Below are positions 1,443-2,535 of a stretch of DNA of 64,000 nucleotides, in pieces. Numbering within the stretch: the stretch's first letter is position 1; every line of letters begins with the position of its first letter. The notes beneath the pieces are model-generated. The model saw nothing but the letters and a program-made list of their open reading frames with translations, was not told the DNA's origin and did no database searches. A program made the translations under genes and the position numbers. This stretch comes from Sipunculus nudus (lineage: Eukaryota > Annelida > Sipuncula > Golfingiida > Sipunculidae): positions 41,174,362 to 41,238,361 of the forward strand of contig CM049307.1 in assembly GCA_026874595.1 (NCBI GenBank). The letters are read 5' to 3'.

Positions 1443-1617
1443 CTTTCCTGCTTTACAGTGTATGACAGCTATATTTCTTTCATGTTTTGATAACCATTTG
1501 TCCACGTCGTCACAGAAGGGCCTGATCAGCTGTAGTTCTGGCGGATGGTGGTCATCAAAAGGATAGTGTGCTACTCTCTGATGGAACTTGCCACAGTCAT
1601 AATGACGTTCGGAACAC
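1443..1617 (-). CDS. PTEN: PTEN coding exon 4 fused with first part of exon 5 (catalytic P-loop start)
   Basis: This 175-nt exon completes a Leu codon left open by exon 3 and adds 58 codons, residues 74-131. It carries the end of the N-terminal phosphatase fold, FDDHHPP (Asp equivalent to human Asp92), the helix with [12 protein letters not shown], and the start of the phosphatase loop, HCKAGK, with the catalytic Cys (human Cys124, here about 127). PTEN dephosphorylates PtdIns(3,4,5)P3 at the 3 position and so opposes PI3K-AKT signalling at the plasma membrane. The acceptor is TTTTTGCAG before 1617; the donor is AAG|GTAAGG at 1442. In human PTEN an intron separates exons 4 and 5 near codon 85; it is missing here. 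The intron after GK is not in the human gene. Identity is beyond reasonable doubt; the remainder of the protein lies outside the window. Confidence 0.96.
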
Positions 1618-1624
1618 CTGCAAA

Positions 1625-2535
1625 AATACAGAATACAAGTCATAATAACGTTCAGAACACCTGCAAAGATACAGAATACAAATCATAATGACGTTCAGAA
1701 CACCTGCAATAAATACAGAATATAAGTCATAATGATGTTCAGACACCTGCAATAAATACAAAATACAAGTCATAATGACGTTCAAAACACCTGCAATAAA
1801 TATAGAATACAAGTCATTATGACATTCAGAACATCTGCAATAAATACAGAATACAAGTCATAATGACGTTCAGAACACCTGCAAAAATACAGAATACAAG
1901 TCATAAAGACTTTCAGAACACGTTCAATAAATACAGAATACAAGTCATAAAGTTGAGGTTAAGAATACTTTTAAGAACATAGAATGTAAGTCATTTTGGT
2001 GTTCAGATCACTTGCACAAACAAAAATGCAAGTTGTAATTAGGTTCAGAATACCTGCAAGAATACAAGTCATAATGATGAGGTTTAGAATATTTTTAAGA
2101 ATAAAGAATAAAAGTCAATATGGTGTTCACTGTTCAGAACACTTGCAAGAATAAGAATGCAAGTTGTATTGAGGTTCAGAACACCTGCAAAAATATAGAA
2201 TACACATCATAATGATGTTACAAACACCTGCAAGAAAAAGGAATGGATGTCATAATGATGCTCAAAACACCTGTCAGTATACAGAATACACATCATATTG
2301 CCAGATGGAAAAAAACACCTGCAAGAATTAAGAAAACAATTAATTTTTTTTTTTCAACACCTGTAAGAAGACATGCCACAACAATGCCCTGAACATTAAA
2401 GATAAAAGGTGAGGAAATAATCATAAATGATATTCTGAACATCAGCATGAGCAAAAAATTCACACGTCATGAAGACCAGTACATTGGCAAGAATTGAAAA
2501 TTACAAGTCATAATGACATTCTGAACACCTGTGAA
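1625..2535 (-). repeat. Minisatellite made of copies of the PTEN exon 4 splice acceptor
   Basis: On the minus strand each unit reads roughly TATTTATTGCAGGTGTTCTG followed by AACGTCATTATGAC, the same bases that form the real acceptor and the codons for C-S-E-R-H-Y-D of the exon at 1617. Clear copies of the acceptor core (plus-strand AACACCTG or close variants) lie at about 1656, 1699, 1742, 1786, 1830 and 1874, spaced 43-44 bp. A degenerate copy lies near 1917, and weaker ones near 2050, 2178, 2224, 2268, 2315, 2358 and 2526. Copies become more diverged with distance from the exon, as expected if the array grew from the exon edge. Confidence 0.9.

Follow-up and report, generated by a model that had tools for sequence, protein, structure and literature searches.

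A minisatellite of acceptor copies at an intron-exon boundary of a PTEN gene

On its minus strand, the window (the whole 64,000-nucleotide stretch of DNA analysed here) carries 21 intronic head-to-tail copies of a unit of about 43 nt that spans an intron-exon boundary, located at 1638-2549, ahead of a PTEN acceptor at 1617. We consider it likely that this array is a neutral, exon-seeded boundary minisatellite of the kind known from amphioxus as mirages, with decoy splicing that would be leaky at most. What is new here is PTEN as a mirage gene, together with a donor-boundary mirage in a protein kinase gene; the class of structure itself has already been published.

The PTEN gene and its boundary array

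The minus strand of the window holds the first part of a PTEN gene, as originally proposed. Four exons, which we number after human PTEN, together form a single open frame of 131 residues that ends in HCKAGK: the exon 1 equivalent with the likely start codon (43488-43575), the exon 2 equivalent (36026-36110), a short exon (35329-35373) that we take to be the equivalent of human exon 3 and that ends at the donor CT/GTAAGT (a slash marks the splice boundary here and below), and the exon at 1443-1617. The last runs from CSERHYD to HCKAGK and is followed by the donor AAG/GTAAGG; its acceptor, TGTATTCTGTATTTTTGCAG (1618-1637), joins exon 3, which ends in VYNL, to CSERHYD in frame. Both the donor at 35329 and the acceptor at 1617 had been placed correctly in the original prediction. 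The joined protein matches the human PTEN chain with a phmmer E value of 1.2e-63, and the exon at 1443-1617 by itself matches PTEN chains at 1.9e-24. Furthermore, two of the five PTEN_C2 matches of the genome (1,426,538,692 bases in 153 contigs) lie 22-24 kb downstream of the window exons on the same strand, and no further near-identical copy of the PTEN exons was found in the genome, the other two of five protein matches being 51% and 43% identical. Given the joined open frame, the downstream PTEN_C2 matches and the lack of a second near-identical copy, this is a live-looking gene.

The exon at 1443-1617 presumably corresponds to human exon 4 fused to the start of human exon 5, and 21 of its 58 residues differ from the human ones; vertebrate PTENs are nearly identical to one another in this stretch, and we therefore assign the gene, tentatively, to an invertebrate. 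It ends at HCKAGK (window 1443), so that the following intron splits the phosphatase P-loop, an arrangement from which human PTEN presumably differs. The intron that precedes it measures 33.7 kb, and the array occupies its 3' end.

Tandem Repeats Finder reports the array at 1595-2297 (period 43, 16.2 copies, score 618). Wrap-around alignment carries it on to 2549, followed by a weak, incomplete unit (2552-2581), and yields 22 units when the real junction is counted, of which 14 are 43-44 nt long and the others 39-49 nt. Each unit spans the boundary, being composed of the last 20-21 intron bases and the first 23 exon bases, TGTATTCTGTATTT(A)TTGCAG/GTGTTCTGAACGTCATTATGACT. At the junction itself, the exonic part GTGTTCCGAACGTCATTATGACT (1595-1617, minus strand) is what the exonic halves of the copies derive from; past base 23, exon and unit are no longer homologous. 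The anatomy is the one foreseen in the original prediction, namely a pyrimidine-rich tract, GCAG, codons that spell C-S-E-R-H-Y-D, and the motif TTATGAC, which precedes the following AG by about 20 nt. The six close copies counted there also hold, but the further "about eight weaker" ones fall short of the total of 21 decoys, and alignment moves the end of the array from 2535 to nearer 2549.

Ten places in the array agree with the first 23 nt of the exon at 18-22 positions, and three others agree at 17. Outside the array the window offers nothing better than 16, and 20 base-shuffled versions of it gave top values of 15-17; a chance origin of the array is thus excluded. The exonic part of the unit codes for LCSERHYD, a single residue off human PTEN, and because this coding motif is common to human PTEN, the sequence identifies the exon as the source and the direction of copying as exon to intron.

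Divergence of the copies and predicted splicing

The copies decay with distance from the exon. Identity to the real junction is 89-98% in the six exon-nearest decoys (unit starts 1680-1898), 86% in the seventh (unit start 1942) and 43-86% in the remaining fourteen, and over the 21 units it is negatively correlated with distance (Spearman -0.76). The array comprises a young block of seven decoy units (1638-1942, minus strand), which together with the real junction have a mean pairwise identity of 0.89, and an old block of fourteen diverged units (1943-2549, minus strand), for which this value is 0.51 within the block and 0.63 in comparison with the young one. Eight of the 14 old units have a young or the real unit as their nearest relative, and six have another old unit; the latter include pairs three units apart that look like the result of an early block duplication, and they argue against a pure star history. 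Since identity falls with distance and old units are closer to the young block than to each other, the history appears to fit an exon end held by coding constraint, drifting intronic copies and some later shuffling. We therefore put forward the following course of events. A segment of about 43 nt across the 3' end of the PTEN intron and the first 23 exon bases would have been duplicated head-to-tail, and its copies would have spread into the intron through slippage or unequal exchange. The coding-constrained exon end would have remained as the preserved source, with the intronic copies drifting and so giving rise to the decay with distance.

Many copies retain the look of an acceptor. CAG stands at the homologous position in 13 of the 21 decoy units and is followed by GT in 12 of those 13. 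Counting every AG preceded by C, T or A (G-AG left out) from the first decoy of the array to 2528, we obtain 21 decoy sites (1660-2530, minus strand), 13 of them homologous to the true acceptor. Splicing to any of the 21 is predicted to reach a stop before HCKAGK, although six would insert a multiple of three; such truncation is largely expected, as the exon runs into stops early when read in either of its other two frames. With the nearest decoy, whose first base is 1660 (formerly given as about 1655), the frame shift, the stop and the exact peptide of the original prediction were all recovered.

The decoy unit closest to the true junction (1856-1898, minus strand, 98%) has its acceptor at 1878 and is identical to the true one over 34 nt, 28 before and 6 after the AG boundary. 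A simple filter for strong acceptors, which asks for CAG, 12 or more pyrimidines among 16 positions and a preceding 15 nt free of AG, is passed by 59 of the 3331 minus-strand AGs in the window; eight of these, the true site included, lie in the array, against 0.8 expected. With an identical decoy and eight passing sites, local sequence would hardly distinguish the true acceptor from its decoys, and the excess over expectation makes some interference of the array with splicing plausible. The locus thus offers a natural competition test, ahead of the catalytic exon, between the true acceptor and a decoy that is identical over 34 nt and 261 nt away; should the true site still win, something beyond local splice-site sequence decides. 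Presumably this is how far a site lies from the full exon with its enhancers and from the downstream donor, and the exon-proximal acceptor would be the one mainly used because it alone adjoins the full exon and those enhancers. The TTATGAC of each exonic half is a plausible candidate branch site for the next AG. Given its position about 20 nt upstream, the branch site of the true acceptor may now lie inside a decoy copy. Occasional use of a decoy would yield a truncated, decay-prone mRNA, and we infer that such use is low. RNA structure as a means of masking the decoys was considered and rejected, folding being ordinary both for 126 nt (z -1.18, equalled or bettered by 23 of 200 shuffles) and for 519 nt (z -1.53, 9 of 100).

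If selection kept the decoys, their AGs should outlast other columns. Beginning with the unit at 1942 and going outwards, seven of 15 units have an intact CAG; 23 of the 42 unit triplets, counting CAG itself, reach that frequency or more, and in mean conservation CAG ranks 27 of 42. Compared with the young consensus, pyrimidines are retained more in the intronic than in the exonic half of the older units (p 0.007 by Fisher's test and 0.04 by Wilcoxon's, n=15) and are also gained more there (p 0.005), a pattern that would point towards decoys being kept; the cells in these tests are not independent. With the older units' own consensus as reference, retention gives p 0.17 and gain p 0.42. Leaving out two poorly aligned units brings retention to p 0.14, and to p 0.58 when combined with that consensus. 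Selection on the decoys was rejected accordingly, with AG and CAG columns unfavoured and the pyrimidine signal lost against the older units' own consensus. The decoys thus bear no sign of selection that their sequence would reveal, and leaky use is still compatible with this.

Competing readings and known systems

The original prediction saw in the decoys acceptors whose use should reduce functional PTEN or trigger decay of the transcript. Its acceptor-like sequences and the truncation from all 21 sites stand; the lowering of PTEN does not, given decoy AGs that lack preferential conservation and similar mirages reported not to disturb splicing. In its full form that reading is a ladder of decoys that would compete with the true acceptor and whose truncated products would be destroyed, so that array length sets PTEN dose. 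The near-identity of the closest decoys (89-98%, one of them over 34 nt), the predicted stops before HCKAGK and the eight strong sites against 0.8 expected are what such a ladder would need, but truncation follows largely from the early stops in the other exon frames, the decoy AGs are not preferentially kept, and published mirages, as far as the available passages report, leave splicing undisturbed; we regard it as unlikely. Quite unlikely, as a joint claim, is a length-tunable rheostat in which acceptors divert transcripts to decay in a fraction varying with copy number among individuals or somatic cells, the trait arising from a tendency across the whole genome to amplify exon boundaries, in a lineage other than amphioxus. 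The units might instead serve as donors too, or decoy use might be corrected by a second, dual-specific or recursive, splice, leaving the array harmless. The 13 decoys with CAG, 12 of them followed by GT, would allow this, and as a donor CAG/GTGTTC agrees with the consensus at six of nine positions, equal to the real donors of exons 2 and 3. However, the junction rebuilt after decoy use, TCT/GTGTTC, agrees at only three of nine, and the spacing of neighbouring units is shorter than usual introns. Thus, even though AGGT sites of dual use are known in tandem-repeat genes such as UBC (in the available text of PMC10809524), this is very unlikely.

Two further readings concern the origin of the repeat itself. 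A dispersed satellite or a transposon-borne repeat, lying at the exon by accident, might be suspected because the distal end of the array, one unit with its flank (2488-4312, minus strand), belongs to a 1.8-kb segment that is duplicated about 37 kb beyond the start of the window (L007 3268-5096, 93.8% over 1835 nt), beside a 278-bp satellite. Yet the unit carries PTEN coding sequence, and among the genome matches listed, a lower bound, only the array itself and this one duplicated segment appear; we judge such an origin extremely improbable. Tandem units that are nearly identical can be miscounted in an assembly, but the fourteen older units, with 43-86% identity to the junction, are individually distinct, the contig (C2) has with 98.5 Mb the size of a chromosome and a second, different array occurs in the same genome, which makes an assembly artefact highly improbable. 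An exon-seeded minisatellite of the mirage kind, probably neutral, accounts best for the array.

Among known systems, the closest are the amphioxus mirages, minisatellite-like repeats across exon-intron boundaries that were named after Adh3. In the globin gene BflGb6 they consist of tandem duplications of the 3' end of an intron and the 5' part of the exon. They seem not to interfere with regular splicing, although their signals could serve as cryptic sites (all from the available part of PMC3087553). PGBD5 was later added as a mirage gene in a paper that, in the part available, also cites troponin C (PMC3902484). The PTEN array shares with them tandem duplication across an intron-exon boundary and many units with AG/GT signals, and with BflGb6 also the side of the boundary. 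As in mirages, its boundary-spanning units include an exon part, their splice signals are partly retained (CAG in 13 of 21), the gene is intact over the four exons traced, which form one frame, and the phenomenon recurs at another gene, in this case as the kinase donor array. In the accessible descriptions, amphioxus units measure 10-72 bp in Adh3 and 150-160 bp in the globins, against about 43 bp here, and BflGb6 has six and three units in two haplotypes, against 21 decoys. The amphioxus genes concerned are Adh3, the globins BflGb6 and BflGb9, troponin C and PGBD5, whereas here it is PTEN; the genome of B. lanceolatum comprises 468 Mb, in contrast to 1.43 Gb here, about three times larger. 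Length instability is shown for amphioxus mirages, whereas the PTEN array is known from one assembly. Cephalochordate genomes are expected to have about 0.5 Gb and to carry GFP genes. Searches for the GFP family and for the mollusc haemocyanin domain gave no match here, a silence that carries no weight, and for GFP the controls were silent as well. If the host lies outside the cephalochordates, mirages extend past the group in which we found them described.

Other systems resemble the array less closely. The minisatellite of the human interferon-induced gene 6-16, or IFI6, reportedly gives multiple splice donors, as Turri et al. are said to have described in 1995. It has in common with the PTEN array the many copies of a splice site; to judge by the title of that paper, however, these are donors used as such, in contrast to the acceptor copies of PTEN. 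Minisatellite-sized units at exon-intron boundaries are also described for human segmentally duplicated genes, where internal tandem repeats can make new introns; according to the text available, these concern recent primate paralogues with transcript evidence and average four units of 30 bp (PMC2812944). The tandem units of UBC likewise each carry AG/GT, but their sites, as the available text has it, mark off the coding ubiquitin units and serve as both donor and acceptor (PMC10809524), whereas the PTEN array is known from sequence alone. In the accessible portions of the literature on PTEN and repeats we found no comparable PTEN case, and those of papers on earthworm metallothionein and C. 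elegans minisatellites describe no boundary-spanning units. Hence the novelty implied originally extends at most to the gene; the structure had been published as mirages, and within this genome a kinase gene carries another boundary array.

Other boundary arrays and neighbouring repeats

This second array is a donor-side mirage at a protein kinase exon (L050; G000:C4:93858713-93864946). Its 65-nt unit consists of the exon end coding for SEPYSTK followed by GTAGAT; of 48 anchors in the fetched stretch all keep GT and 38 have the same donor 9-mer as the exon itself. When two of the units were searched against the genome, 34 matches appeared, all within C4:93857159-93861743, that is 4585 nt or about 70 units by length. 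It emerged from a survey of the first 20 short exon-like sequences among 138 kinase matches, chosen by eye in list order and taken with 3-kb flanks, in which pieces of the exon plus 40 nt were sought as repeats nearby and low-complexity matches were dropped; the PTEN exon, as positive control, gave 12 matches. Three of the 20 exons had repeat matches, and one of them is a clear mirage, L050. At the second (L044; G000:C9:48355459-48361743) a 40-nt minisatellite of 15 copies (gene-strand 3290-3896, 96% matches) starts within a few bases of the donor of the kinase exon and is without exon sequence; the third (L063) has a single repeat match, outside the coding part. Control flank segments had such matches in nine of 40 cases, two of them from the L050 array, compared with three of 20 exon segments. 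Boundary repeats were absent from ten further exons with 0.8-kb flanks and from 30 long-exon loci with 1.5-kb flanks. BLAST of five other PTEN boundaries against the window (exon 1 donor left out, exon 2 acceptor 3 nt and 1443 donor 1 nt off) gave weak short matches only, E 0.036 or worse. In this small, non-random sample, boundary minisatellites recur in the genome no oftener than flank repeats do, and some repeats would be expected to land on boundaries because repeats near exons are common here. Together the PTEN and kinase arrays suggest that exon-boundary minisatellites recur in a large genome, of a size out of keeping with amphioxus, which bears on the gain and loss of intron splice sites.

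Scans with tRNA and Rfam models found no match. In viral contigs there were 13 pattern stretches, with no PTEN relative among them, and a 28-nt piece of the unit had no exact counterpart; bacterial genomes gave two 15-residue matches. Several other repeats lie nearby. The 278-bp tandem satellite, with GGTGGCGCCACC palindromes, occupies 2969-4013 of the window and 2214-3246 and 3749-4776 of L007, and an array similar to it is present in L044 (175-1223). The same PTEN intron holds a 55-bp minisatellite of 6.5 copies (8864-9209) and a 66-bp one of 15.4 copies (21263-22276). The latter covers a large part of two open frames (123 and 129 codons) that overlap on the minus strand, and shares with the PTEN array a 14-nt match (E 0.23) that is probably due to chance. 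Additionally, in a myosin head gene (G000:C2:44849337-44852248, minus strand) the profile region of about 109-153 matches at four neighbouring places, which looks like a cluster of alternative exons.
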